In this document: piece by piece, positions 7,121-33,365 of the stretch
How the letters are laid out: the number at the start of each line of letters is the position of its first letter
Numbering within the stretch: the first letter of the stretch is position 1
Assembly (NCBI RefSeq): GCF_003987065.1
Contig: NZ_PIPY01000008.1
Location: 1-64,000, forward strand
DNA from: Pseudidiomarina insulisalsae
Lineage (GTDB): Bacteria > Pseudomonadota > Gammaproteobacteria > Enterobacterales > Alteromonadaceae
Reading direction: 5' to 3'
Length of the DNA: 64,000 bases
Notes under the pieces: generated by a model
Database searches by the model: none
Told to the model about the DNA's origin: nothing
What the model saw: the letters and a program-made list of their open reading frames with translations, nothing else
Program-made: the position numbers and the translations under genes

Positions 7121-8958
7121 TGTTTATCAACTCCTTGCGGCGGACGTTCGCGGGCCCGGCGGCGCGCTTCAAGTTCCATTTTGCGCTGTAACAGAAAGGC
7201 CGGGTCGTCTTCAATACGATTGAGCCAGTTTTCCATTTGCTGGCGTTGTTCTTCACTAAGTTGCTCGGCGCTGGGCATGCCCTGCTGGTTTTGCGGTTCG
7301 CCTTGCTCCGCTGCATCCTGCGCTCGTTGCGCCTCAGTCTCAGCATCCTGGCCTTCGGGCGGTTGTTGTTCTGCCTCGCCACTTTGTTGCTGCTGTTGTT
7401 GTTGTTGTGCTTCGCTCTGTGAGCCCGACGGCTGCGATTCCTGCGGTTCGCCGTCGCCCTCTTGTTGCTGCTGTTGCTCTTGTTCGCCCTGACCTTCGCC
7501 TTGTCCCTGCTGCTGTTGCTGTTGTTGCTCACGTTGTTGCTCGGCGAGGCGTTCGGCCAGCTCAAGGTTCGCCTGTGCCTGACTAAGCTCGGGGTCACGT
7601 TGCAGTGCCTCACGATAAACATTGGCCGCTTCGTCAAAGCGCTGTAATTGCATCAGTGTATTGCCCTGATTGTAATACCCCTGCGCATTGTCAACCTGAG
7701 AGAAGTCCTGTAACGCCTGCTCATAGGCGCCGCGGCGATAATTGGCAGTTCCCCGCTGCCAGGGATCCTCGGCAATTGCTGCAGCGCGGTCATAATTTTC
7801 ATTGCGCAATGCTTCATCCGCTTGCTGGTAAGGGGTTTGCCATAATTGCTCATGCCACTCTAACCCTTCTTGCTCAGCGGGCGACGTGGGCGCTTGCTGG
7901 GCATAGGCAATTGTTGGCATAAGTAATGCGCCACAGCTGATGAGCAACATACCACTCAATAAGACACCGCGTCGTGCCAGAGGTAACATAAAAACTAGGG
8001 CTGCTGCCAGCAGCCACGGGCCTCGATCAACCCAGGCGTCGCCTTGTTGATCCTCGTTATCACTGCCTTCGCGGCTTAATGGTTCCATATTACTCAGATA
8101 AAGAATATCTTCCTGATCCTGGCGGACCTGGGTAAAGCGGCCATTACTGAGCTGCGCAAATTGTTGCAACCGGCCCGGCACCATTTTCGGAATCACTATC
8201 TCGCCGGTACTGTCCCGTAACAGCTTACCGTCCGCAAGTTCAATAGGTGCGCCCTGTGCAGTACCGACGCCCAGAATCGCCAGCCGGTGCGGATGGCGAC
8301 GGACAAATTGGGTGATCTCTTGTTGATCACGGGTATCAATACCGTCAGTGAACCAGTAAATATCCCCCTCGGCGTAGCCAGCTTCGCGTAACAAACGGTC
8401 CGCAAGCTCAAGCGCCGCCAGCGGATAACTGCCCTGGACCGGCATAATATCGGGCCGCAGCGCGCGAATCAGGTTGCTTAAGCTGGCCGAGTCCGATGTC
8501 AGTGGACTGATAACATAGGCGTCACCCGCGTAGGCAATCAGTCCTGTTTCGCCGTCAAGTTGCTCATTGGCCAACGCCATTGCCTTGTAACGTGCCTGGG
8601 TCAGACGGTTGGGCGCAACATCAGTGGCAAGCATGGATTGGGAGACATCCATCACAATGACCTGACCCGCCTGTAACTGGAATACCGGTTGCGGCTTACG
8701 TTCCCAGGTTGGTCCGGCGAGTGCCAGTATCAGCAGGCTCAATGCCAACGGCAGCAACCAGATACGCCACTGTCCCGAAGCCTTACCGCTGTCCACGACT
8801 AGTAACTGAGCCAGATGTGGCGCCACCACCTGACGCCAGCCGGATTGCCTGCCGCGCCGGCGCCAGAGTATACCGATGACAATGGCCACCAGCGTCAGCG
8901 CAAGCAACCACCAGGGGCGGATAAAATGAAACTCGTTCAATATAGCGGAGAGGTTCAT
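7114..8958 (-). CDS. BatB-BatC fusion: VWA-domain membrane protein with TPR and Gln-rich tail
   Basis: A 614-residue protein that joins functions separate in some bacteria. The BatB part has two membrane helices near 15-31 and 66-82, then a von Willebrand A domain with an intact metal-binding DVSQS at 104-108. Another hydrophobic stretch precedes a TPR-like region (about 385-500), followed by a Gln/Glu/Gly-rich low-complexity tail (about 505-575) with repeated Q tracts, as seen in BatC-like TPR proteins. The start at 8958 is an ATG forming an ATGA overlap with batA, with GGAGGG 7 bases upstream; longer readings into batA are unlikely. VWA domains usually bind protein partners, here perhaps BatA, BatD and the MoxR ATPase. 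Confidence 0.85.
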   Translation of the reverse strand: MNLSAILNEFHFIRPWWLLALTLVAIVIGILWRRRGRQSGWRQVVAPHLAQLLVVDSGKASGQWRIWLLPLALSLLILALAGPTWERKPQPVFQLQAGQVIVMDVSQSMLATDVAPNRLTQARYKAMALANEQLDGETGLIAYAGDAYVISPLTSDSASLSNLIRALRPDIMPVQGSYPLAALELADRLLREAGYAEGDIYWFTDGIDTRDQQEITQFVRRHPHRLAILGVGTAQGAPIELADGKLLRDSTGEIVIPKMVPGRLQQFAQLSNGRFTQVRQDQEDILYLSNMEPLSREGSDNEDQQGDAWVDRGPWLLAAALVFMLPLARRGVLLSGMLLISCGALLMPTIAYAQQAPTSPAEQEGLEWHEQLWQTPYQQADEALRNENYDRAAAIAEDPWQRGTANYRRGAYEQALQDFSQVDNAQGYYNQGNTLMQLQRFDEAANVYREALQRDPELSQAQANLELAERLAEQQREQQQQQQQGQGEGQGEQEQQQQQEGDGEPQESQPSGSQSEAQQQQQQQQSGEAEQQPPEGQDAETEAQRAQDAAEQGEPQNQQGMPSAEQLSEEQRQQMENWLNRIEDDPAFLLQRKMELEARRRARERPPQGVDKQW

Positions 8959-9950
8959 GAGGCAGCCCTCCGCCAGCGCTGCTGAAACAGCGAGGTTATA
9001 ATAAAGAGTAATGTGAAGAGTCCCAGCGCGATACCTGCAGGCCAATAGAAGAGTTCAGTTTGCGGACGGCGTAACTGCTCATCGCCGCTCACCGGCTCAT
9101 AGGCATCGAGGGTCTGATAAATCTGCTCGAGCTCTTCGGTGCTGCGGGCGCGAAAATATTCACCACCGGTGGCCTGCGCCAGGCCCTGCAGCATTGCTTC
9201 GTCAAGATCACGACTGGGGTTGACCTTACGCTTACCGAAGAAGCTGTCAACGATGACTTCATCCGCACCTACACCGATGGCGTAAATTTTAACCCCATAG
9301 TAGCTGGCTAACTGGCGCGCCTGCTCAGGTGAGACGTTGCCAGCGGTGTTTTGACCATCGGTGAGTAAAATCAGAATTTTATTACTCTCTTCGTTATCGC
9401 GAAAGCGCTTGACCGCTAGCGCCACGGCATCACCAATCGCTGTGCGCTCGCCAATCAGCCGTAACTCAGCTTCTTCCAACATTTGCCGGACGCTGGTTAA
9501 GTCATAGGTGATGGGCGCTTGCACATAGGCGGTATCAGCGAACAGAATAAGACCCATTTTGTCGCCTTTGCGCCGCTCAATAAAGTCGCTGACGACATGT
9601 TTGACCATCGTCAGACGATTCACTTCACGCCCTGCAATCTGCATATCAGCGATTTCCATACTGCCGGACAGATCCACCGCCAGCACCATCTCCCGTGCTT
9701 CACTGCGAATCTGAACCGGTTCGCCCAGCCACTGTGGGCGGCACAGCGCGAGAATCAGTAAAGACCAGATAATAAGTAGCAATAAGGCCGGCCAATAGCG
9801 CCGCGCGGTTGTCTGCTGCGTGCCACCGCCACCCAAGGCGCGCGGTAATATAAGTGTTGAAAACTGTTTTTGCCGGGCGCGCCGTAACCACCAGAGCAAA
9901 GGGGCGAGAAACCATACCAGCGTAAGCCACGGCCAGGCAAACTCAATCAT
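8955..9950 (-). CDS. BatA family VWA-domain membrane protein
   Basis: 331 residues. Two N-terminal hydrophobic helices (about 5-23 and 53-70) precede a VWA domain with the metal-ion motif DLSGS at 93-97 and the ILLTDG segment. A C-terminal membrane helix (GIALGLFTLLFIITSLF) follows. This is the usual BatA topology, with the VWA domain between membrane segments. I place the start at the ATG at 9950 because GGAGG lies 5 bases before it; a GTG two codons earlier is also open. The gene overlaps its neighbours on both sides, so it is part of one operon. The partner is presumably the MoxR ATPase encoded upstream. Confidence 0.87.
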   Translation of the reverse strand: MIEFAWPWLTLVWFLAPLLWWLRRARQKQFSTLILPRALGGGGTQQTTARRYWPALLLLIIWSLLILALCRPQWLGEPVQIRSEAREMVLAVDLSGSMEIADMQIAGREVNRLTMVKHVVSDFIERRKGDKMGLILFADTAYVQAPITYDLTSVRQMLEEAELRLIGERTAIGDAVALAVKRFRDNEESNKILILLTDGQNTAGNVSPEQARQLASYYGVKIYAIGVGADEVIVDSFFGKRKVNPSRDLDEAMLQGLAQATGGEYFRARSTEELEQIYQTLDAYEPVSGDEQLRRPQTELFYWPAGIALGLFTLLFIITSLFQQRWRRAAS

Positions 9951-10437
9951 GGTCACCTCCGTGTCGCTGTTTTTTGGCTGGCGGCAAGGCCTGCTTTAAC
10001 CAGTGTCGGGCGAAGTCATAGTATTGCTGTTGTAGTGCCGGTGCGCGCTGGCGCTCGGGCTGGAACGCGGCGTGTTCAGCTTCCACCAACAAATCGTAGT
10101 AGTTGGCGGCCTGGCGCTCGTTCAATTGGGCAAGCAGAAAGTCGCGCCAACGGTTACCTGACAAGCCCGCCACCTGATGCGCGGGGAAGTAGGCGAGCGC
10201 TGTCTGCTTCAGCAGCAGATTGATAGCATTAATCGACATGCCCGGATGTAACTGGCGCAATGCGGCGCGCCGCATGCGACGCCGGCGATAGCTGGCAACT
10301 AAACCATAGCCACAACCCAGCAGTATCGCCAGCACCAGGGCGCCGAGCAGATACCAGCCGGGCGCCAGCGGCCACCAGTGTGCGGCGGGTGGTGCGATAA
10401 TCTGCTGCATCTCCTGCAGCGCGGGTGTATCGATCAC
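9943..10437 (-). CDS. DUF4381 family membrane protein of MoxR/Bat operon
   Basis: A 164-residue protein with one membrane helix near 24-50 (LLGALVLAILLGCGYGLVA) followed by a basic RRRRMRR stretch and a helical cytoplasmic domain. Genes of this DUF4381 type sit between the DUF58 and VWA genes in Bat operons. Its biochemical role is unknown. I choose GTG at 10437 as the start: it forms a GTGA overlap with the DUF58 stop and has GGAGG 7 bases upstream. An ATG six codons earlier would increase the overlap to 22 bases. Confidence 0.75.
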   Translation of the reverse strand: MIDTPALQEMQQIIAPPAAHWWPLAPGWYLLGALVLAILLGCGYGLVASYRRRRMRRAALRQLHPGMSINAINLLLKQTALAYFPAHQVAGLSGNRWRDFLLAQLNERQAANYYDLLVEAEHAAFQPERQRAPALQQQYYDFARHWLKQALPPAKKQRHGGDHD

Positions 10438-11399
10438 AACATTACCTCCGGCCACTGTTCTTCAATCGGGCGGGCCGCACTGAACTGGCGTAATTCAAGA
10501 CCCAATTGTTGCAGTTGCAGTAATAACTCCTGCTGCTGTTGCGACACTTCGCGCACATAATGCTCGCGCGCTTGTTGATCGCCGGCGGCAAAATGGCGCT
10601 GTTGACGGCCATTGCTGATGGCGATGTCCTGCTGGGCTAGTTCCTCGGGGAGTCGATTCTCCAGCGGGTCGGAACACTGTAGCACCTGCAATGAATTATG
10701 ACGTTGCAAGGTTTGCAGTAACAGCTGTGTAGCGTCAGAAAAGCCCTGCCAGTCACTGATGATATGAATGATGGTCCCCGGTTTTGCAAGCTGTTGCGCG
10801 CGCCGTAACAGGTCGTCCAGGGGCACCGCAGTAACTGCCGCAGAGGCATCGGCGTCGCGCCACAACGCAAGACTTTCGTTTTGCATTTCGACCAGACTAT
10901 GCAGAATCCGCAAGGCGCCTTGCTGACGTGCCTGAGGTCGTAGCTCGACATGCCGGGTAGGATGACCAATGAGGGCCCCCACACGATCCCCGCGTTGGAC
11001 CGCAAGCCAGGCCAGCGCCGCAGTCAGATGGCAGGCAAGTACGCTTTTTAAGGTAAGTTGACTGCCAAAGTGTTGTGATGCTGCCAGGTCAACGACAAAT
11101 AGCACCGGGCGCTCGCGCTCTTCACGGAAAAGCTTGGTGTGCGGACTCCCGGTACGCGCGGTGACGCGCCAGTCAATGGCGCGAACGTCGTCGCCGGCCT
11201 GGTAATGCCGGACTTCGTCAAATTCCATGCCGCGTCCGCGGGTTTTGCTCAGTAACGCGCCGGTCTGTGCTTTCGGCGGATGTAGCTTACGATGGCGGGC
11301 AAAAGCCGCGGCCTTGCTGCGATAATACATAAGCTCAGCGATGCCGACCGCAACGCCGTCACTATGCCACTGCCGGAGCCATTCATTGACGTTAACCAT
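10434..11399 (-). CDS. DUF58 domain protein of MoxR/Bat operon
   Basis: A 321-residue soluble protein with the DUF58 signature near residues 55-90 (GRGMEFDEVRHYQAGDDVR followed by IDW) and a VWA-like fold behind it (VLFVVDLAAS). DUF58 proteins are almost always encoded beside MoxR AAA+ ATPases and are thought to act with them on VWA partners, which fits this operon. Start: the ATG at 11399 has AAGG 5 bases upstream; a GTG two codons earlier is an alternative. The gap to moxR is 11 bases. Confidence 0.85.
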   Translation of the reverse strand: MVNVNEWLRQWHSDGVAVGIAELMYYRSKAAAFARHRKLHPPKAQTGALLSKTRGRGMEFDEVRHYQAGDDVRAIDWRVTARTGSPHTKLFREERERPVLFVVDLAASQHFGSQLTLKSVLACHLTAALAWLAVQRGDRVGALIGHPTRHVELRPQARQQGALRILHSLVEMQNESLALWRDADASAAVTAVPLDDLLRRAQQLAKPGTIIHIISDWQGFSDATQLLLQTLQRHNSLQVLQCSDPLENRLPEELAQQDIAISNGRQQRHFAAGDQQAREHYVREVSQQQQELLLQLQQLGLELRQFSAARPIEEQWPEVML

Positions 11400-11410
11400 A
11401 GCCACCTTGA

Positions 11411-12367
11411 TCAGGGTGTGGGAACTTCTTGCAAGATCAGCTGCAAGGCTTGGTCGGCGGTGACGCCGTCAGCTTCGGCCTGATAACTCAGGATGATGCG
11501 GTGACGCATGACGTGGCCGAATACTGCCTGAATGTCGTCAGGCGTGACAAAGTCGCGGCCGCTGAGCCAGGCTTTCGCTCGTGCGCAGCGGTCCAGTGCG
11601 ATCGTCGCGCGCGGACTGGCGCCGTAACTTAACCAGCGCGCCAGGTCAGTGGAGTAATGCTCAGCCTGACGCGAGGCGATAACCAGTTGCACCAGGTAAT
11701 TCTCAACCGTCTCGTCCATAAATATTTCCAGCACCTCTTTGCGGGCGTTAAAAATATCTTCCTGACGCAGCGGGGTTGGCATGGCAACCTGACCATGCAG
11801 TTCTTCGCCGCGGTTGAGACGCAAAATGTCGAGTTCAGTCGCAGCCGCGGGATAGTCGATATTCAGCTGCATTAAAAAACGGTCCAGCTGCGCTTCGGGC
11901 AGCGGGTAAGTACCTTCCTGCTCCAGCGGGTTTTGGGTCGCCAGCACCATAAACAGGTTGGGCAGGGGGTAAGTGGTCCGGCCCACGGTAATTTGTCGCT
12001 CTGCCATGGCCTCAAGCAACGCCGACTGCACTTTTGCCGGGGCGCGGTTGATCTCATCCGCGAGAATGACATTATGAAATAATGGCCCTTGCTGGAATAC
12101 GAACTCGCCGGTCTCGGGCCGATAAATATCCGTCCCGGTCAAATCAGCAGGAAGTAAGTCGGGGGTGAATTGCACGCGATGGAAGTCACCTTCAATGCCC
12201 TTGGCCAGGGCATTCACCGCGCGGGTTTTAGCAAGCCCTGGCGGGCCTTCGACCAACAGATGGCCGTCAGCCAGTATGGCAATCAATAAACTTTCGGTAA
12301 ACTCGGACTGCCCGAGTACCTGACTGTCCAGATAATTTCTCAGGCTTTGGAATTGTTCTGCAGCCAT
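11411..12367 (-). CDS. MoxR family AAA+ ATPase
   Basis: 318 residues. First gene of the six-gene operon. Walker A GPPGLAKT is at 41-48 and Walker B reads VILADEINRAP. The sensor region NPLEQEGTYPLPEAQLDRF and a C-terminal lid are typical of the MoxR family. These ATPases act as chaperone-like activators of VWA-domain proteins, and here four downstream genes encode suitable partners. The start ATG is preceded by AGGGG. The divergent fadI lies across a 158-base spacer that must hold both promoters. Confidence 0.92.
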   Translation of the reverse strand: MAAEQFQSLRNYLDSQVLGQSEFTESLLIAILADGHLLVEGPPGLAKTRAVNALAKGIEGDFHRVQFTPDLLPADLTGTDIYRPETGEFVFQQGPLFHNVILADEINRAPAKVQSALLEAMAERQITVGRTTYPLPNLFMVLATQNPLEQEGTYPLPEAQLDRFLMQLNIDYPAAATELDILRLNRGEELHGQVAMPTPLRQEDIFNARKEVLEIFMDETVENYLVQLVIASRQAEHYSTDLARWLSYGASPRATIALDRCARAKAWLSGRDFVTPDDIQAVFGHVMRHRIILSYQAEADGVTADQALQLILQEVPTP

Positions 12368-12452
12368 GTTGACCCCTAATGTGGTAGCTGTGTCTATACT
12401 CTAAGTATGTACTTTACCGAAAACAACAGTTTAATTCTTGGGATGAACCCGC

Positions 12453-12487
12453 TAGAATTTGTAATAAATCGTGAGGTCTGACCAGAT
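12453..12487 (+). promoter_or_regulatory. fadI promoter -10 box and FadR-like operator
   Basis: TAGAAT at 12453-12458 is a good -10 box, although the matching -35 (TTTAAT at 12430-12435) is weak. Downstream, the minus strand at 12474-12485 reads CTGGTCAGACCT. This agrees with the core of the E. coli FadR site (CTGGTCNGACNT). Its position just after the predicted start of transcription suits repression of fadIJ in the absence of long-chain acyl-CoA. PsrA-type regulators recognise different sequences, so FadR is the better guess. Confidence 0.6.
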
Positions 12488-12525
12488 CAGAAATCAACCC
12501 ATTTAACGGACAGAGGTAGTGAAAC

Positions 12526-13836
12526 ATGACGTCACGTCAGCAATTGACTACGCCAAAGGGCGACCGCATCGCCGTGGTTGCAGGCTTACGCACGCCGTTT
12601 GCCAAACAAGCCAGTTACTTTCATGGTATTCCAGCGTTGGACCTGGGCAAAATGGTGGTGCAGGAAATGCTCAATCGTTATGAACTAAGTGGCGACGAGG
12701 TTGAACAACTGGTCTTTGGCCAGGTGGTGCAGATGCCATCCGCGCCCAATATTGCGCGCGAAATCGTGTTGGGCACCAGTTTACCGGTCAGCACTGACGC
12801 TTATAGTGTATCGCGTGCTTGCGCAACAAGCTTTCAGTCCACTGTGAACATCCTTGAATCGATGCTTGCCGGAAATATCAGTTGCGGTATTGCCGGTGGC
12901 GCGGACTCGTCCTCGGTACTGCCAATTGGTGTGACCCGCAAACTGGCGATTGCCCTGGTTGACTTAAATAAAGCCAAAACCCTCGGCCAGCGTCTGAAAA
13001 TTTTAAAACGCCTCAGCTTTAAAGATTTGAAGCCGGTACCGCCGGCGATTGCAGAATACAGCACTGGCATGACCATGGGGGATACCGCTGAGCAGATGGC
13101 CAAAACCCATGACATTGACCGAGCTGATCAGGATGCGTTGGCGCACCGCTCGCATACGCTGGCGCAAGAAGCTTGGGAGGACGGAAAACTTGACGATGAG
13201 GTCATGACAGCTTATGCCGAGCCTTACGAGGACTTCTTACGTCGTGACAACACCATTCGCAGTGACAGTAAGCTCGACAGCTACGCCAAACTACGCCCGG
13301 TATTTGATCGTAAGCACGGTTCGGTCACGGCCGCAAACAGCACACCGCTGACCGACGGCGCCGCTGCGGTCTTGCTGATGACCGAGAGTCGGGCTAAGGC
13401 GTTAGGCTACGACGTGCTGGGCTACATAAAAAGCTATGCATTCAGTGCCATTGGTGTTGAAAAAGATATGCTGATGGGACCCTCATTTGCGACACCAGTG
13501 GCGCTCGATCGCGCCGGCATGAAGTTGAGCGATCTTGATCTGATCGATATGCATGAAGCTTTCGCCGCGCAAACCCTGGCCAATGTAAAAATGTTCGCCA
13601 GTAAGAAATTTGCCGAGGAAAAACTCGGTCGCAGTGAAGCCATTGGCGAAATCGATATGACTAAATTCAATGTACTGGGCGGGTCCATTGCTTACGGACA
13701 CCCCTTCGCAGCTACCGGCGCGCGTATGATCACCCAAACCTTGCGGGAACTGAAGCGCCGCGGCGGCGGAACCGCTCTTACCACGGCCTGTGCAGCAGGC
13801 GGACTTGGTGCAGCAATGATTCTGGAGAGTAACTAA
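12526..13836 (+). CDS. fadI: Acetyl-CoA acyltransferase (3-ketoacyl-CoA thiolase) FadI
   Basis: Thiolytic last step of fatty-acid beta-oxidation: 3-ketoacyl-CoA plus CoA gives acetyl-CoA and a shortened acyl-CoA. The 436 residues match FadI rather than the shorter FadA. The acylated Cys is C99 in [10 protein letters not shown]. The HEAFAAQ motif, the [16 protein letters not shown] histidine motif and a C-terminal Cys in [10 protein letters not shown] are intact. The start ATG has GAGGT upstream. The stop overlaps the fadJ ATG (TAATG), so the two subunits are translated together as a complex. A FadR-like site lies upstream. Confidence 0.96.
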
Positions 13837-25005: not shown

Positions 25006-25596
25006 ATGACCAAACACGATCAAGCGACAGAAAATGAGCAAAATGCTGCAACTGAACAGCAACCAGAGTCACAATCAGAAGCTGCGGCGGAAGCTGAAGA
25101 GAACCTGACCAGTGAGGTTGATGAGCGCATTGCCGAACTGGAATTGGCCTTGAGCCAGGCAGAACAGCGCGCCGAAGAATCGAAAGATCGCGCCGTCCGC
25201 GCCGTCGCTGAGATGGAAAACGTGCGCCGTCGCGCTTCTCAGGACGTCGAAAAAGCGCATAAATTTGCTTTGGAAAAGTTTGCCAACGAAATTCTGACCA
25301 CCGTTGATAACCTTGAGCGGGCACTGGCGATTGCCGATCAGGAAGAGACGATTAATGAGAATTTCCTGGAAGGTATTCAATTAACTCACAAAAATTTACT
25401 GAGCACGCTGAACAAGTTCGGTATTGAAGCTGTCGGTGAAGAGGGCGAAGCCTTTAACCCGGATTTGCATCAGGCGATGTCAATGCAGGCCGCAGAAGGG
25501 AAAGAAAACAATACGGTGCTGGCAGTGATGCAAAAAGGTTATACCCTGAGCGGACGATTGTTGCGACCGGCCATGGTAATGGTAGTCAAAAACTAA
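25006..25596 (+). CDS. grpE: Nucleotide exchange factor GrpE
   Basis: Co-chaperone that releases ADP from DnaK. 196 residues: an acidic, Gln/Glu-rich N-terminus, a long dimeric coiled coil (about 40-110), and the C-terminal beta domain with the family signature near the end ([21 protein letters not shown]). The start ATG follows a sigma-32 promoter and a GAGTAACG ribosome site. Usually dnaK lies close by; here an accessory three-gene cassette of about 5.5 kb separates grpE from dnaK. Confidence 0.96.
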
Positions 25597-25647: not shown

Positions 25648-25738
25648 TTGTAAATTCGCGTTTATAGATTATTATCAAATGTTGGGAGCTTGAAAAGGCT
25701 CGCTTTTTCGATCTCCTGGCATGATGATAATCATAAAA
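25648..25738 (+). promoter_or_regulatory. Probable promoter and Fur-like box before the TonB receptor
   Basis: TTGTAA (25648-25653), 16 bases, then TATTAT (25670-25675) make a plausible promoter. At 25720-25738 the sequence matches the 19-base E. coli Fur consensus at about 14 positions, including an unbroken GATAATCAT. It lies in the leader close to the start codon. A GGAG/CTCC hairpin is found between them. Iron regulation is therefore possible but not proven, since AT-rich leaders often give partial matches. Confidence 0.4.
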
Positions 25739-25755
25739 ATTATAAAGGGCGTCCT

Positions 25756-28725
25756 ATGACTACATTCCTTGAAGAGCTCAAGCTGAACCGCTTGGCGTTG
25801 GCTATTGGCTGTGTGTTTGCTGCATCGAGCCCGGCCGTATTCGCGCAAGATACCGGTGCAGATGATGAGCAAGAGAACACCGCAACCGAAGAGCCCGCTG
25901 AAAAAATTCAGGTTCTGGGTTCACGTATCCGTACCGACGGCCTGGACCAGGCTTCTCCGGTAGAAATTATTAGTGCCAGTGAGGCAGTTGACCAAGGTTT
26001 GGTAACCCTTGGTGATTTGCTTCGTACTTCAACTGTTGCCGCAGGTTCAAACCAGATCACTGCTGCGACCTCGACCGCATTTGTCACCGAAGGTGGTACC
26101 GGTACTGAAACACTCTCCCTGCGCGGTCTTGGCGCAAACCGTACCCTGGTGCTTCTGAATGGTCGCCGTATCGGCCCTGCTGGTACCCGTGGTCAGGTTT
26201 CTGCGTTTGACCTTAACATTATGCCGTTGTCTGCGGTTGAACGGGTTGAGATCCTGAAAGATGGCGCGTCTTCTTTGTACGGTTCTGACGCTGTTGCCGG
26301 GGTAGTGAACATTATCACTAAAGATGGCGACGAGAGCAGCTTCAATTTGAACATGGTCCAGCCAATGGATGACGGCGGTTCACAATTCCGCCTGAGCGGT
26401 ACCATGGGGCGCAGTTTCGACAGTGGCTCAGTTCGCATCGTAGGTGACTATCAGAAGCAACAAGAACTTGCTCGTGGTGATCGCGACTTCTTTGCTTGTG
26501 CCAATGCTTATGTGTTTGACCCGGAAACCGGCGAGCGTCGTGACGTGGTTGACCCGCGCACAGGCGAGTATCATTGTAATGACCTACTTTGGGGGCACGT
26601 CTGGATTTATGACTACTCAGGTGAAGTTCCTATTGATGCGAAAGCGCAGTACGACTACGACGGTAACTTAGGTCAGTACCTGGACTCATTCAATGAGCGT
26701 GCCACAGGTCCGGCGTCAATGCGTACACCAGAAGGTTGGTATCCGGTCGCTTATGATCGTGAGTCATTCGGTTTGACCAACGCCGATCACCCATTTCAGG
26801 ATCTCGAAACCCTGTCACCTGAAACCGAAGTAGCAACGGTGTTCGTTGAAGGTGAGTACTGGGCTTCTGATACCACCACCATGTACGCGGAAGTATTGCT
26901 GAACCGTCGTAAAACCATTACCAACGGTTACCGTCAGTTCTGGAGCTACATTTATAACGAGAACTTCTTCGCAGGTAACTCGTTAAGCGAAGGCTGGACC
27001 GGTGCACAGTGGTTAAGCCCAACCCCAATTACTGATCATTCCGGCAGTGAGATTACTGTTGACTACCGTCGCTTTGTGGCGGGCATCGAAGGCTCTATCG
27101 GCCAGTGGTACTGGGATATTAACTACCAAGATAGCCGCAGTGACGGTGACTACCAGACTAAAATTATCTATCAGGATGCTATTTTCGACCAAAACTTCCT
27201 GACCGGTTCCTGTGAAGGCATGGAACTGTCGGTCCGTGGTATTCCGTGTCAGGACGTACCATGGTTAGACCCACAATTCCTCGCTGGTAATATCAGCCCG
27301 GAAATGCAGGAATTCCTGTTTGGCAGCGAGACCGGTAACACTATTTATGAGCAGCGTACCCTCGAAGGTACTATCTCTGGTGAATGGTTTGAAATGCCTG
27401 CCGGTATGGTTGGCGTCGCAGCCGGTTTGTCGTTCCAGGAAGATAAAATTAATGACACTCCAGGAGAAGTGACACTGGCGGGCAACAGCTGGGGTATGAC
27501 ATCAGCTGGTATTACCCGTGGTGATTCCTTTACCCGTGCCGCCTTTGCCGAGTTGCAGCTGCCTTTGGCGCGTGACCTACCATTGATGAAGCGCCTTGAC
27601 CTTTCCATGTCAGCACGTTTTACTGATGTCTCAACCTACGGTAACGACACCACCTACAAAGCAAGTCTGAACTGGACAGTTAATGACGATTTCCGTATCC
27701 GCGCGTCGCAAGGTACGTCGTTCCGCTCACCTGCGCTTTACGAGTTGTTCTTAAACGATCAAACAAGCTTTGCTCGTCAGGGAAGCATTGATCCTTGTAG
27801 ACTGTGGCAGCAAGCCGAAATTAACGGCACCATTTCTGAACAGACCGCCGAAAACTGTGAGGCTGACGGCATACCACCTGATTTCGCAGGCGCTGCGATT
27901 TCTGCCGAAGTGACCACCAGTGGTGGTTTAGGTGATCTTGAGGCAGAAACTTCAACAGCGCGTACCTTAGGTTTTGTCTGGACACCGGACTTTACCGAGT
28001 TTGCGATGAGTATCGATTATTTTGATATTGAGATCGAAGATGAAGTAACACTGTTAGGTGCGGGGACCATTGTCTATGGCTGTTATGAATCTCAGAACTT
28101 TGAGACTGAGCCACTGTGTGATTTGTTCACCCGTAACGAGACTGACTTACGTGTTGATAACGTTATCAACAACTACATCAACATTTCAAATCAGATCAAC
28201 CGCGGCATCGATTTGCAGATGAGCTATCCGTTTTCAACCAGCTTTGCTGAGTTTGAATTGAGCTACGAGCACACTTATCAGATCGAAGCGTCACGTAAGT
28301 TATTGCCAACTAGTGTGCGTCAGGACAGTGCAGGTCGTCTTGGTCGTCCGGAACATGTGGGTAACTTTAACTTTGCTATGATGAAAGGCGACTGGACCTT
28401 TAACTGGACCGCGCGTTACATCGGTGATGCATCGAACCATGAGTTTTATGGTGAGGGTGAATATCGTGATGACGCCACCTACTGGGGTGAGGAAGTTCGT
28501 GTTGATTTAGCGACTCCATCGGTCGTTTATCATGCGTTCTCAGCAACGCGCGACTTTGTCGAAGAAGGTGTAAGTGTAACCTTTGGTTTGGCGAATGCCT
28601 TTGATAAAGAGCCGCCTAAGCTTTCATCACACAGCTTCGCTACACGTATCGGTAATGCTGCGTTCTATAGTCAGTATGACTGGCTGGGACGTCGTGCCTT
28701 CGTGAACATTTCGTACGAATTCTAA
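25756..28725 (+). CDS. TonB-dependent outer membrane receptor
   Basis: 989 residues, of the large Alteromonadales/Caulobacter-type receptors. A signal peptide ends near residue 30 (AVFA/QD). A TonB-box-like segment (EKIQVLG) and a plug domain (about 60-180, with LSLRGLGANRTLVLLNGRR, VERVEILKDGASSLYGSDAVAGVVNIITK) follow, then a long 22-strand barrel ending in Phe (ISYEF). Several Cys pairs occur in predicted external loops, suggesting disulfides. The substrate cannot be read from sequence. The start at 25756 has AGGG upstream and a proper signal peptide; a reading 22 codons longer spoils it. Next are a sulfotransferase-fold gene and a halogenase-family gene, behind a terminator. Confidence 0.9.
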   Translation: MTTFLEELKLNRLALAIGCVFAASSPAVFAQDTGADDEQENTATEEPAEKIQVLGSRIRTDGLDQASPVEIISASEAVDQGLVTLGDLLRTSTVAAGSNQITAATSTAFVTEGGTGTETLSLRGLGANRTLVLLNGRRIGPAGTRGQVSAFDLNIMPLSAVERVEILKDGASSLYGSDAVAGVVNIITKDGDESSFNLNMVQPMDDGGSQFRLSGTMGRSFDSGSVRIVGDYQKQQELARGDRDFFACANAYVFDPETGERRDVVDPRTGEYHCNDLLWGHVWIYDYSGEVPIDAKAQYDYDGNLGQYLDSFNERATGPASMRTPEGWYPVAYDRESFGLTNADHPFQDLETLSPETEVATVFVEGEYWASDTTTMYAEVLLNRRKTITNGYRQFWSYIYNENFFAGNSLSEGWTGAQWLSPTPITDHSGSEITVDYRRFVAGIEGSIGQWYWDINYQDSRSDGDYQTKIIYQDAIFDQNFLTGSCEGMELSVRGIPCQDVPWLDPQFLAGNISPEMQEFLFGSETGNTIYEQRTLEGTISGEWFEMPAGMVGVAAGLSFQEDKINDTPGEVTLAGNSWGMTSAGITRGDSFTRAAFAELQLPLARDLPLMKRLDLSMSARFTDVSTYGNDTTYKASLNWTVNDDFRIRASQGTSFRSPALYELFLNDQTSFARQGSIDPCRLWQQAEINGTISEQTAENCEADGIPPDFAGAAISAEVTTSGGLGDLEAETSTARTLGFVWTPDFTEFAMSIDYFDIEIEDEVTLLGAGTIVYGCYESQNFETEPLCDLFTRNETDLRVDNVINNYINISNQINRGIDLQMSYPFSTSFAEFELSYEHTYQIEASRKLLPTSVRQDSAGRLGRPEHVGNFNFAMMKGDWTFNWTARYIGDASNHEFYGEGEYRDDATYWGEEVRVDLATPSVVYHAFSATRDFVEEGVSVTFGLANAFDKEPPKLSSHSFATRIGNAAFYSQYDWLGRRAFVNISYEF

Positions 28726-28753
28726 GTTTAGAATTCAACGACTACGAAAAAGT

Positions 28754-28787
28754 AAAATGCCGACCTAGTGTCGGCATTTTCTTTTTT
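28754..28787 (+). terminator. Terminator after TonB receptor
   Basis: AAAATGCCGAC (28754-28764) pairs with GTCGGCATTTT (28770-28780) around CTAGT, followed by CTTTTTT. The downstream sulfotransferase and halogenase genes therefore need read-through or their own promoter. Confidence 0.92.
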
Positions 28788-28788
28788 A

Positions 28789-28812
28789 TGGCACACTTTT
28801 TTGTGGCACACT
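28789..28812 (+). repeat. Direct repeat TGGCACACT x2
   Basis: TGGCACACT occurs at 28789-28797 and again at 28804-28812, a 15-base period, in the short space between the receptor terminator and the sulfotransferase start. It could be an activator site or chance. Confidence 0.45.
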
Positions 28813-28852
28813 GAAACGAAACTTCAAATAACAAAAAACAAGAGAGTAACCA

Positions 28853-29644
28853 ATGGCCCGCGTTGTCACCAAGCCCGACACTTTGAATCAACTGAATCAG
28901 GACTTTGAGCAACAGGTATTAACCGTACCGGTGTTCCTCAACTCTGTGCCGAAGTGTGGCACCCACCTGATTCGTAATATTTTTCGTATGTTTGTGCCGG
29001 TCAATCAGCAGTACCACGATACTTTCATTCAGATCCCGGTGCTGCGACAGCATGTTGGGGCATTTAATTACCTGCAGCCAAAGTTAAGCTGGGGTCACTT
29101 ATTATTCTCTGATGAATCAGCCATGGCATTACGCAAAGCGCAGCATCTGGTGGTGGTGCGCGACCCTTACGACTGGGTGCTGGCTCGGGCACGTTTCTTC
29201 TTGTCGGATAACTTTCAGGGCAATCTGGAACACCTGAAAAGCGGTCAGATCAATTTAGAAGAAATTCTGAATATGATGATTTTTGGCATTCATGAGAAAG
29301 TACCGTCTTTATCGGACATTTATACCCACAATGCTGCCGCCTGGCTTGGCACGGGCACCAAACTGGTGCGTTTTGAAGAGTTAAAACACCACGTGCAGAA
29401 CCTGGAAAGCGATGACGCTGAACAGTACTTCCGTGAACTGCTAAGCGTATTGCAGTTACGCGAGTTTCCAACGGACTGGCGCGAGCGCGTGCGGGTGGGG
29501 TCTGATCGCGAACAAAGCGGCACCTATCGCGATAATTTAACCAATACCGCCTTCACCTTGCCTGACCAGCTGCCGGAGCAACAACGTAAGCTGGTGGACT
29601 ATGCCGCGCCCGGCTTACGCAACTTGCTTGGCTATTGCGATTAA
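28853..29644 (+). CDS. Sulfotransferase-fold protein (putative PAPS-dependent)
   Basis: 263 residues, no signal peptide, so cytoplasmic. Two regions point to the P-loop sulfotransferase fold: SVPKCGTH at 31-38 resembles the 5'-phosphosulfate loop (usually PKSGTT), and VVVRDPYDW around 100-108 resembles the 3'-phosphate site (usually RDPRD). A basic SDREQSGTYRDN segment near the C-terminus could match the late PAPS-contact region. The Cys in place of Ser in the first loop is a variation. The acceptor is unknown. The stop is 14 bases before the halogenase start, so the two are one operon and may modify one molecule or act on cargo related to the receptor encoded upstream. Confidence 0.65.
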   Translation: MARVVTKPDTLNQLNQDFEQQVLTVPVFLNSVPKCGTHLIRNIFRMFVPVNQQYHDTFIQIPVLRQHVGAFNYLQPKLSWGHLLFSDESAMALRKAQHLVVVRDPYDWVLARARFFLSDNFQGNLEHLKSGQINLEEILNMMIFGIHEKVPSLSDIYTHNAAAWLGTGTKLVRFEELKHHVQNLESDDAEQYFRELLSVLQLREFPTDWRERVRVGSDREQSGTYRDNLTNTAFTLPDQLPEQQRKLVDYAAPGLRNLLGYCD

Positions 29645-29658
29645 CGGGGAGCCGCGTC

Positions 29659-31290
29659 ATGACTAAACGCAAAATTTTGATTGTCGGTGGTGGCTCTGCC
29701 GGCTGGATGACCGCTGCTTATCTGAATGGTGCGTTAAACCGTCGCGGCGAAGACCATCGAGTCGATATTGAACTGTTAGAGTCGCCTGATACGCCTCGTA
29801 TCTCAGTAGGGGAAGCAACGATTCCCTCCATGCGCCACCTGTTAGCGGTGGTCGGCGTGAACGAGCTGGACTTTATGCGCGCTACCGAAGCGACGTTTAA
29901 ACAGTCGATTAAGTACGTCAACTGGGTTCATAACGACAACAGCTTTTATCATCACCCATTTAGCAGCCTGCGCGCCCAGCCGATTGACTATGCTGGCAGC
30001 GACTGGCTGCGCAGCGATCGCAGTGTGCCTTTTATGGAAACCTGCTCTATCCAGCCGCTGGTCTGTGAGTGGGGACGGGCGCCGCAAATGTTTGGTGAGT
30101 GGCGCATGGGCGCGCGGCTGAATTACGCCTACCAGATGAACGCGCAGAAGTTTGCCGACTACCTGCGTGATTTTTCTAACGCTCGCGGCGTGCGGCACAT
30201 AATGGCCAACATGCAGCAGGTTGAAAAACATGCCAATGGCGATATTCGCGCGGTCATCACCGATCAGGGTGAGACCTTAGGCGCAGACCTTTTCATTGAC
30301 TGCACTGGCTTTCGCTCGTTGCTATTGGAGCAAGAGATGGGCGTCGGTTTTGAAGACTTCGGCAAGTATTTGCTTTGCGACCGTGCAGTTACCATGCATG
30401 TGCCGTACGAAACCCATTATCCGGGCATGGTGCGACCCTATACCACAGCGACGGCGCTCTCCAATGGATGGATATGGGATATTCCGATGCAAAGCCGCCG
30501 CTCGATCGGTTATGTGCATTCAAGTGCATTTATCGATAAAGAAGCTGCCGAAAAAGAAATGCGTGCTTATCAGGGCAACAACACCGAAAACCTGCCGTGC
30601 CGTTTTATTCCTTTCAAAGCTGGACGGCGGCACCAGCAGTGGCAGGGCAACTGCGTCGCGATAGGCTTGTCAGGTGGTTTTATTGAACCACTGGAGTCAA
30701 CCGGACTGTATCTCAGCGATTTAGGTGCAGTGCTGCTGGCGGAGCATTTCCCCTGGCATCAGGACGATATGAAGCCTTTAGCCAATCGCTATAACCGGCT
30801 GATGACCAACCGCTACTATGAAATTCTTGATTTCATCAATATGCATTACTGCATGACCAAACGTACTGATACCGAGTTCTGGCGCACGGTGCAGCAACGC
30901 GAGCATATTACCGATCGGTTATTGGCAAAACTGGATTTCTGGCGCAGTAAGCCACCCAGCATGCATGATTTTCAGGATCAGTTCTTTCCCGGTATGCCGA
31001 CTGCCGCGGCGGCCGGTGTCGACAGCGGTGATACCCGTCCGCCGATTGACACTGGTGGGCTATGGAACCACGAAAGTTACGAGTGCATTTTGTATGGCAT
31101 GGAGTTTCTTCAACAGGAATGCGATAAGTGGTTTGGTACCGGGCGCCCGCCAACCCGCGTCAATCCAGCTATTTTGCAACGCTTGCAGATGGCCCGGCAA
31201 ATGCTGCCGCCGCATGAGCTCTGGCTGCAGCGGGTGCTCGGGATGGCTGAGTACCGCCCGGCAGGAACGCCGGCGGGCTGGGTGGTATAA
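29659..31290 (+). CDS. Tryptophan-halogenase family FAD-dependent enzyme
   Basis: 543 residues, usual for flavin-dependent tryptophan halogenases. The FAD-binding GxGxxG is at 10-15 (GGGSAG). The Lys that guides hypohalous acid is present in the expected context (TFKQSIKYVNW, K81). The diagnostic WxWxIP is WIWDIP at 271-276, and the PLEST motif has its Glu at 346. Catalytic parts of the family are therefore intact. Related enzymes next to TonB receptors have been shown to brominate indole-type substrates in other bacteria; the substrate here is unknown. The start ATG at 29659 has GGGGAG 7 bases upstream. It needs reduced FAD from a reductase not encoded nearby. Confidence 0.85.
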   Translation: MTKRKILIVGGGSAGWMTAAYLNGALNRRGEDHRVDIELLESPDTPRISVGEATIPSMRHLLAVVGVNELDFMRATEATFKQSIKYVNWVHNDNSFYHHPFSSLRAQPIDYAGSDWLRSDRSVPFMETCSIQPLVCEWGRAPQMFGEWRMGARLNYAYQMNAQKFADYLRDFSNARGVRHIMANMQQVEKHANGDIRAVITDQGETLGADLFIDCTGFRSLLLEQEMGVGFEDFGKYLLCDRAVTMHVPYETHYPGMVRPYTTATALSNGWIWDIPMQSRRSIGYVHSSAFIDKEAAEKEMRAYQGNNTENLPCRFIPFKAGRRHQQWQGNCVAIGLSGGFIEPLESTGLYLSDLGAVLLAEHFPWHQDDMKPLANRYNRLMTNRYYEILDFINMHYCMTKRTDTEFWRTVQQREHITDRLLAKLDFWRSKPPSMHDFQDQFFPGMPTAAAAGVDSGDTRPPIDTGGLWNHESYECILYGMEFLQQECDKWFGTGRPPTRVNPAILQRLQMARQMLPPHELWLQRVLGMAEYRPAGTPAGWVV

Positions 31291-31442: not shown

Positions 31443-33365
31443 ATGGGCAAAATTATTGGAATTGACTTAGGTACCACAAACTCATGTGTTGCGGTACTCG
31501 ACGGTGACAAAGCGCGCGTGATTGAGAACGCCGAAGGTGACCGTACTACGCCATCAGTCGTGGCTTTTACCGATGACGGCGAGACGTTGGTGGGACAACC
31601 AGCGAAACGTCAGGCGGTAACAAACCCGAATAAAACCTTATTTGCAATTAAGCGTTTAATCGGTCGTCGCTTCAAAGACGAAGAAGTACAGCGTGATATC
31701 GGTATCATGCCGTACAAAATTGTTGAAGCTGACAACGGTGATGCCTGGGTTGAAATTAACGGCGACAAAAAAGCGCCACCGCAAATTTCTGCAGAGATTC
31801 TGAAAAAGATGAAGAAAACTGCAGAAGACTTCCTTGGTGAAAAAGTAACTGAAGCAGTTATTACTGTACCTGCTTACTTTAACGACGCGCAGCGTCAGGC
31901 AACCAAAGACGCCGGTCGTATCGCCGGTCTGGAAGTGAAGCGGATTATCAACGAGCCAACCGCAGCCGCGCTGGCCTACGGTATGGACAAGAAGAAAGGT
32001 GATAACACCATTGCGGTGTATGACTTAGGTGGTGGTACCTTCGATATCTCAATTATTGAAATTGATGAAGTTGAAGGCGAGCACACCTTTGAAGTACTGG
32101 CCACTAATGGTGACACGCACTTGGGTGGTGAAGACTTTGATAACCGTCTGATTAACTACCTGGTTGAGCAGTTCCAGAAAGATCAGGGCATTGACCTGCG
32201 TAAAGATCCGCTGGCGATGCAGCGTCTGAAAGAAGCGGCCGAAAAAGCCAAAATTGAACTGTCATCAGCGCAGCAGACCGAAGTAAACCTGCCGTACATT
32301 ACCGCAGATAACACCGGTCCTAAGCACCTGGCGATTAAAGTGACCCGCGCCAAACTGGAGTCGCTGGTAGAAGACTTGATCACCAAGTCGCTGGAGCCGG
32401 TAAAACAAGCATTGGCGGACGCTGATCTGTCAGTGAGCGATATTCAGGACATCATCATGGTCGGTGGTCAGACCCGGATGCCGAAAGTATTGCAGGCAGT
32501 GACTGACTTCTTCGGTAAAGAGCCGCGTCGTGATGTGAACCCTGACGAAGCTGTTGCGGTGGGTGCTGCTGTACAGGCGGGTGTCTTGCAGGGTGACGTA
32601 AAAGACGTGCTGCTACTTGACGTGACGCCACTGTCGCTGGGTATCGAAACCATGGGCGGCGTGATGACCAAGCTGATTGAGAAGAATACCACGATTCCTA
32701 CCAAGCAATCGCAAACCTTCTCAACTGCAGAAGACAACCAGTCTGCGGTGACGGTCCATGTGATTCAGGGTGAGCGTAAGCGCGCCGCTGATAACAAGTC
32801 ACTGGGTCAGTTTAACCTGGAAGGTATTCGTCCGGCACCGCGTGGCGTACCACAAATCGAAGTCACTTTTGACCTTGATGCCGATGGTATTCTGCACGTG
32901 TCTGCGAAGGATAAAGATACCGGTAAAGAACAGAAGATCACCATTAAAGCCTCTTCGGGTCTGAGTGACGACGAAGTCGAGAAAATGGTACGTGACGCCG
33001 AAGCACATGCTGAGGAAGACCGTAAGTTTGAAGAAATGGTACAGGTGCGTAACCAGGCGGACAGCTTAGTACACGCAACCCGCAAGCAACTTGAAGAAGT
33101 TGGCGATAGCCTGGACAGTGCTGAGAAAGAGAAAATCGAAGGCGCAATTGGCGAACTCGAAGCAGCTGTGAAGAGCAACGATAAAGAAGAAATCGAAGCG
33201 AAACAGCAAGCTCTTATCGAAGCCTCTGGCAAGCTGATGGAAGCAGCCCAGCAAAAAGCGCAACAGCAGGGTGCTGATGCCGGTGCTGGTGGCCAGCAAG
33301 CGAAGCAAGATGACGATGTTGTCGATGCCGAGTTTGAAGAAGTCAAAGACGAAGATAAGAAGTAA
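31443..33365 (+). CDS. dnaK: Molecular chaperone DnaK (Hsp70)
   Basis: Hsp70 chaperone that binds hydrophobic peptide segments in an ATP cycle driven by DnaJ and GrpE. 640 residues. N-terminal ATPase domain with [13 protein letters not shown] at the start, [12 protein letters not shown], and the VGGQTRMP phosphate-binding segment. The substrate-binding domain follows from about residue 390 ([17 protein letters not shown]), and the C-terminus ends EEVKDEDKK, close to the conserved EEVKD tail. I start at the ATG at 31443, which has GGAG 7 bases upstream and gives the standard [10 protein letters not shown]. Two sigma-32 promoters precede it. Confidence 0.98.

Follow-up and report, generated by a model that had tools for sequence, protein, structure and literature searches.

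A TonB-dependent receptor encoded with a sulfotransferase-fold protein and a flavin-dependent halogenase in Pseudidiomarina insulisalsae: residues of one receptor loop track the neighbouring enzymes and may be their targets

The stretch of DNA analysed here (the window) comprises 64,000 nucleotides of Pseudidiomarina insulisalsae (positions 1 to 64,000 of contig NZ_PIPY01000008.1), and the element under study is a set of three genes encoding a TonB-dependent receptor (TBDR), a sulfotransferase-fold protein (ST) and a flavin-dependent halogenase (HAL). The 989-residue TBDR, composed of plug and barrel and here proposed as the substrate of its neighbours, is specified by 25756..28725, the 263-residue ST by 28853..29644 and the 543-residue HAL by 29659..31290. 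All three genes are located on the + strand, as are grpE (25006..25596) and dnaK (31446..33365), which flank the cassette on its left and right, respectively, and lie outside it. An earlier note, made from the letters of the window, had described three intact genes between grpE and dnaK, and this description holds, all three reading frames being open. An intrinsic terminator-like hairpin with a T-run (28754..28787, + strand; stem 28754-28780, 11 pairs) is positioned between TBDR and ST, and the TBDR may therefore be transcribed separately from ST and HAL; promoter-like sites in the cassette region occur at chance level (6 found versus 6.4 expected).

The three genes constitute a real, conserved cassette. 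The set recurs in Gammaproteobacteria and Alphaproteobacteria. ST was found in 13 of 147 genomes of the same family and in 8 of 398 genomes of a phylum sample, two of the latter representing weak partial matches. A TBDR of the same clade (E<=1e-120) is encoded by 21 of the 147 family genomes, among them all 13 ST genomes, and the eight family genomes with this HAL subfamily all belong to the same 13; this co-occurrence greatly exceeds chance expectation, with hypergeometric values, uncorrected for relatedness, of 1.5e-13 for ST-TBDR and 2.9e-10 for HAL-ST. A scan of named genomes yielded 54 loci in Idiomarina, Pseudidiomarina, Alteromonas relatives, Woeseiaceae, Hyphomonadaceae and Caulobacterales. 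Across 65 ST loci, taken as one per genome as far as discernible (L028, which has no ST, and L031, from the same genome as L016, being omitted), a same-clade TBDR is present at 58 (54 within 1 kb; median gap 104 bp) and HAL at 27, and TBDR-ST is the core pair to which HAL is an add-on. The seven ST loci without a TBDR comprise four cut by contig ends (L020, L051, L069 and L079) and three that are uncut (L049, L062 and L081), the genomes of L062 and L081 harbouring a TBDR of the tyrosine type discussed below on a different contig (L255 and L256). The order and strand of the cassette genes differ between loci. The suggestion that the set might always break grpE-dnaK was not borne out, as this placement was confined, among the loci examined, to Idiomarina/Pseudidiomarina-type genomes (11 including the window) and seen at none of the others; a cassette bound to grpE-dnaK was thus ruled out, loci outside this group being located elsewhere. 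A phage- or plasmid-borne cassette was also rejected, as ST had no phage match and plasmids offered one weak match of 25% over 60% of the query.

The TBDR meets the Pfam cut-offs for Plug (PF07715, 67 bits) and barrel (PF00593, 105.3 bits), misses that of TIGR01782 TonB-Xanth-Caul (28.9 bits versus 310), and begins with a hydrophobic, signal-like stretch as judged by eye. Its AlphaFold2 model adopts the TBDR fold (pLDDT 84.3), which it shares as a plug and barrel with PfeA (ferric-enterobactin), Cir and BtuB, although these show just 12-16% identity to it and are 270 to 400 residues shorter; we know of no modifying enzymes encoded beside the genes for PfeA, Cir or BtuB. In the model, strands 374-394 and 425-448 are placed on either side of residues 395-424 (26938..27027, + strand), which comprise a loop (395-417) and the beginning of the following strand, and on the opposite side the turns (370-373 and 449-450) are short. 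Periplasmic turns of TBDRs are short, and loop 395-417 is for this reason taken as extracellular. Tyr398 (codon 26947..26949) and Tyr400 (26953..26955) are thus predicted to be situated inside a probably extracellular loop, with Trp419 (27010..27012) at its end, all on the + strand; the confidence of the model drops near residues 401-410 (62).

The predicted structure of ST is that of a sulfotransferase dependent on 3′-phosphoadenosine-5′-phosphosulfate (PAPS), in agreement with the fold assigned in the earlier note, whose quoted strings SVPKCGTH and RDPYDW are both present in the window protein. Pfam gave no match to this protein at E<=0.1, its score on PF00685 (Sulfotransfer_1) being 12.3 bits against a cut-off of 22, and searches of the PDB with the single sequence or with a profile gave no match either; PF00685 was matched at E<=1 by 34 of 45 ST members (best 5.9e-5), and ST is here classed by its predicted fold, not as a PF00685 member. 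The absence of a Pfam match for the window protein might have been read as evidence that ST is not a sulfotransferase; the predicted fold led us to reject that reading. Six residues (K34, H82, R103, D104, P105 and S118) are invariant in 45/45 ST sequences. By analogy with RaxST and the SULTs, Lys34 (28952..28954, + strand) would belong to the 5′-phosphosulfate-binding loop, His82 (29096..29098, + strand) is a candidate catalytic base, and residues 103-118, RDPYDWVLARARFFLS (29159..29206, + strand), are a putative 3′-phosphate-binding motif that includes Ser118, the histidine thus lying between the two motifs. RaxST likewise carries a basic residue and a serine in its PAPS motifs, with a base located between the two (PMC6637879). 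The glycopeptide sulfotransferases Teg12, Teg14 and StaL show 16-19% identity to ST and are tied with many SULTs, so that fold comparison does not distinguish between candidate substrates of ST. An APS kinase (for PAPS) is encoded in the genome.

HAL scores 438.5 bits on PF04820 (cut-off 21), and the motifs listed in the earlier note, namely the GGGSAG FAD site, Lys81 (29899..29901, + strand), WIWDIP and Glu346 (30694..30696, + strand), are all found in the window copy; Lys81 and WxWxIP are both retained in 35/37 aligned subfamily copies and Glu346 is invariant in 37/37. BrvH, Xcc4156 and PyrH belong to the same PF04820 family with motifs intact. The best PDB match is PyrH (2wet, 7.4e-88); BrvH (6frl, 8.6e-76), Xcc4156 (6y1w, 1.3e-72) and MibH (5uao, so named in PMC12518702; E 6.5e-60) are matched as well. 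PyrH differs in being a free-Trp enzyme with a longer loop: that of HAL is 16 residues shorter, and the PyrH alignment stops at query residue 428, whereas a RebH match extends to query residue 482; in free-tryptophan halogenases of the PyrH/RebH kind a lid and the C-terminal lobe bind the amino and carboxyl groups of Trp. A deletion in the PyrH loop, of which HAL lacks these 16 residues, is reported to have improved peptide halogenation, and MibH, SrpI and ChlH are flavin-dependent halogenases described as acting on peptidyl Trp. Two or three subfamily HAL copies are found in each of L033, L042, L043, L049, L051 and L058; two of these copies (L049 2837 and L051 1055) have lost Lys81 and WxWxIP and appear inactive. 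The genome of the window encodes a second halogenase, 36% identical (L028, G000:C12:143500-162500; 8526-10064, − strand), which directly adjoins a TBDR (10120-12996, − strand) followed by a gene resembling, by eye, an amidase/beta-lactamase-type hydrolase, possibly a second receptor-halogenase pair of this kind. Three members of the family of the window that lack the HAL subfamily (G111, G137 and G004) have 11, 9 and 10 other flavin-dependent-halogenase matches. TBDR pieces were found at 1/49 loci in the short, 1.5-kb flanks of mostly other halogenases, searched mostly with queries of this TBDR clade.

The receptor was considered as a substrate because TBDR-ST recurs without any other widely shared gene, and this reading predicts, as was stated before testing, that tyrosine should track ST and tryptophan should track HAL. 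In a scan of all residues at all columns, Tyr400 and Tyr398 ranked first for ST. Both tyrosines were present in 26/26 HAL-linked receptors of the first alignment, Tyr398 in 32/37 and Tyr400 in 34/37 of the other ST-linked receptors, and both were absent from the ST-less sisters (0/12). For the Caulobacteraceae 60 loci were fetched out of more than 100 matches listed; the 24 with an adjacent ST contain Tyr398 in 24/24 and Tyr400 in 23/24 cases, and among the 36 without an adjacent ST, rows which entered the all-column scan and were left out of a 119-row set, both tyrosines occur only in L187, which is truncated at a contig end and closely related to an ST-linked receptor. After removal of rows at least 95% identical to a retained row, all 90 ST-linked receptors possess at least one of the two tyrosines (YY in 82, FY in 4, YF in 2 and YL in 2), the row L053_6919 being excluded. 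In the genomes of L226 and L247 an ST is present with no Tyr-motif TBDR among matches to E 1e-40, and may be a relic or serve another substrate.

Trp419 ranked first for HAL in the all-column scan, being present in 25/26 HAL-linked, 5/37 HAL-less ST-linked and 1/12 ST-less receptors of the first alignment. Forty further loci from new matches of the own family included 17 that are HAL-linked (six repeat earlier genomes), all with Trp at 419; five HAL-less ST-linked receptors carry Gly, Gly, Ile, Trp and Trp, and a sixth, L331, cut by a contig end, carries Trp. In the redundancy-reduced set Trp419 is present in 34/34 HAL-linked as against 6/56 HAL-less TBDRs. Rows left out of the HAL tests were L053_6919 (a second TBDR copy, 34%), L187 (contig end), and L082 and L331 (contig ends inside ST); L330 was retained despite a receptor frame broken in the assembly, the receptor frames of L330 and L331 both being in pieces. 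Since close relatives share states, a tree-aware test was employed, which asks, on a tree built without the loop, whether the rate of loss of a residue depends on HAL. W419 came first of 326 columns (LR 24.3, p 5e-6; next 16.6), with a fitted loss rate close to zero where HAL is present, and this LR was reached in 0/1000 simulations of independent evolution; gamma-type rows alone gave an LR of 13.1 (p 0.0015). Trp414 (26995..26997, + strand) was second among HAL-invariant columns and ranked 17/326 in the tree-aware test. In a separate stretch of the receptor, residues 279-287, Trp279, Trp283, Asp286 and Tyr287 are invariant in HAL-linked receptors and partly drift where HAL is absent.

A number of observations weigh against modification of the receptor by these enzymes. 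ST-less receptors have a gap at the tyrosine positions in 27/27 cases, the tyrosines being located in a stretch that the sisters do not have, and in the 119-row tree the ST-linked TBDRs form one clade, so that the ST/Tyr contrast represents one split with no independent replicates. Two genomes in total (G661 and G783) possess an ST with no Tyr-motif TBDR among matches to E 1e-40, the second TBDR copy of L053 adjoins ST without the Tyr motif, and for the distant row L127 the residues at the two tyrosine positions vary with the alignment used (F/L versus Y/Y). As regards Trp419, an independent-pairs sign test was not significant (3.3 pairs the same way, 0 opposite and 1.7 with no difference, of 5; median p 0.25), nor was an earlier such test on fewer rows. 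HAL-less denotes no HAL in the fetched locus, genome-wide absence having been checked for part of the rows only. W419 is kept at L018, L022, L025, L044, L326 and L327, where HAL is absent from the locus, and in 6/12 gamma HAL-less rows; such half-retention is as expected for a tryptophan that is no longer protected and also fits inertia. In gamma rows W419 does not appear among the top 15 frequency contrasts. G040 has a subfamily HAL on another contig and Ile at 419 (coded as HAL-positive in the first alignment and column scan and as HAL-less in the redundancy-reduced set), and L055 was coded HAL-less, yet elsewhere in its genome, on a contig other than that of ST, lies a HAL copy (L142; 55% identical) interrupted by an in-frame TGA, the receptor of this genome being without Trp419. 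Lastly, at loci that have several HAL copies the number of Trp columns does not rise accordingly. The single ST-positive clade, the concentration of most HAL-less rows in two large alphaproteobacterial clades and the non-significant pairs test would all be accommodated if the genes were hitchhikers with no joint function and the residue patterns lineage markers; we regard this as very improbable, as the genes stay linked in two classes despite differences in gene order, and as the tree-aware LR of 24.3 was reached in none of the null simulations.

We favour, with a probability of roughly 0.55, a cassette in which an outer-membrane receptor is encoded together with enzymes that modify the receptor's own loop. 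ST would transfer sulfate from PAPS onto Tyr398 and/or Tyr400 of the unfolded cytoplasmic TBDR precursor, protein-tyrosine sulfation being suggested on the basis of the residue tracking, and HAL, drawing on reduced flavin, oxygen and a halide (chloride or bromide), would halogenate Trp419 and perhaps also Trp414. Action before export is proposed because neither ST nor HAL starts with a signal-like stretch (by eye). The modified precursor would then be exported and fold, bringing sulfotyrosine and halotryptophan close together on the extracellular loop, where they may adjust how ligands are captured or impede the attachment of phages or bacteriocins. We infer the chemistry, the timing, the sidedness and the purpose. 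The fuller proposition stands in our view at about even odds: a dedicated post-translational modification system for an outer-membrane transporter, in which nearby residues of a single extracellular loop are modified by a co-encoded tyrosine sulfotransferase and tryptophan halogenase so that non-canonical side chains serve ligand capture or phage/bacteriocin evasion, and of which further halogenases, sulfotransferases and Asp-hydroxylases linked to TBDRs may be other examples.

A comparable arrangement is provided by RaxX-RaxST of Xanthomonas, where the gene of a PAPS-dependent tyrosylprotein sulfotransferase adjoins that of its substrate RaxX, a 60-residue secreted peptide that is modified before secretion (PMC6637879); the substrate proposed here is in contrast a 989-residue outer-membrane receptor. 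This precedent, together with the RiPP (ribosomally synthesized and post-translationally modified peptide) substrates described for MibH, SrpI and ChlH, would also suit a scheme in which the enzymes act on another protein or peptide, either a small precursor or a surface protein encoded away from the cassette, which the receptor then senses or imports. This we consider improbable, since no precursor-peptide gene is found here among open reading frames of at least 70 residues, no small open reading frame of that size (clustered) recurs widely near the cassette, and the Tyr and Trp tracking would be left unexplained.

The remaining neighbours of TBDR-ST are lineage-specific, with no family at more than 12 of 66 loci, and include S9 peptidases, TPR-sulfotransferases and Asp-hydroxylases. 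S9 prolyl-oligopeptidase-family genes are present at 9/11 loci of ST-less sister TBDRs (L129, L130 and L133-L139) and also adjoin Hyphomonas-type ST-linked TBDRs such as L060 (Pfam was run on L129 and L060), hinting at a receptor clade that takes up peptides. At L037, L048, L049, L051 and L069 ST is adjoined by a protein with an Asp/Asn beta-hydroxylase domain and TPRs (by Pfam for L048 and L037), whose N-terminus is sulfotransferase-like by eye, and all of these loci except L051 contain a separate small hydroxylase-like gene too; these are candidates for further protein-modifying enzymes. In L124 and L125, from one alphaproteobacterial family, a TPR protein is encoded directly 3′ of ST, that of L124 having a Sulfotransfer_3 domain and thus representing a second sulfotransferase in the ST unit.

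The main rival to modification of the receptor, which we hold to be possible and the less probable of the two, is that a small molecule, aromatic or peptidic, enters (or re-enters) the cell through the TBDR and is modified, or made in part, by ST and HAL, with the loop residues co-evolving because they contact the sulfated or halogenated ligand. Aromatic residues of extracellular loops often touch ligands, the S9 peptidases are suggestive of peptide cargo, and SULTs, which are small-phenol enzymes, match the fold of ST as well as do Teg12 and StaL. The related halogenase BrvH, moreover, brominates free indole in vitro; its characterisers consider that indole may not be its natural substrate (PMC5945002). 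Against this rival, the recurring TBDR-ST neighbourhood holds no biosynthetic or catabolic family above the frequency given, and ligand tailoring does not predict that Tyr should be the top tracker of ST and Trp that of HAL. The earlier note had likewise proposed uptake and modification of an aromatic molecule; its account of the gene set, the halogenase motifs and the sulfotransferase fold is borne out here, whereas the residue patterns point instead to the receptor loop as the substrate of both enzymes.

In the literature covered, which included few subscription papers and no bioRxiv, we found no paper joining tryptophan halogenase, TonB-dependent receptor and sulfotransferase, none joining tryptophan halogenase, TonB and Caulobacter, or halogenase, TonB-dependent receptor and post-translational modification, none joining sulfotyrosine and TonB, and no named natural substrate for halogenases adjoining TonB receptors. 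What is new is the receptor-modification reading, each enzyme taken alone being of a known fold or family, and as the prediction names exact residues it is directly testable. If it is true, orphan enzymes would gain a testable role, bacterial tyrosine sulfation would reach beyond RaxX-type peptides, and halogenated tryptophan would occur in a membrane transporter.
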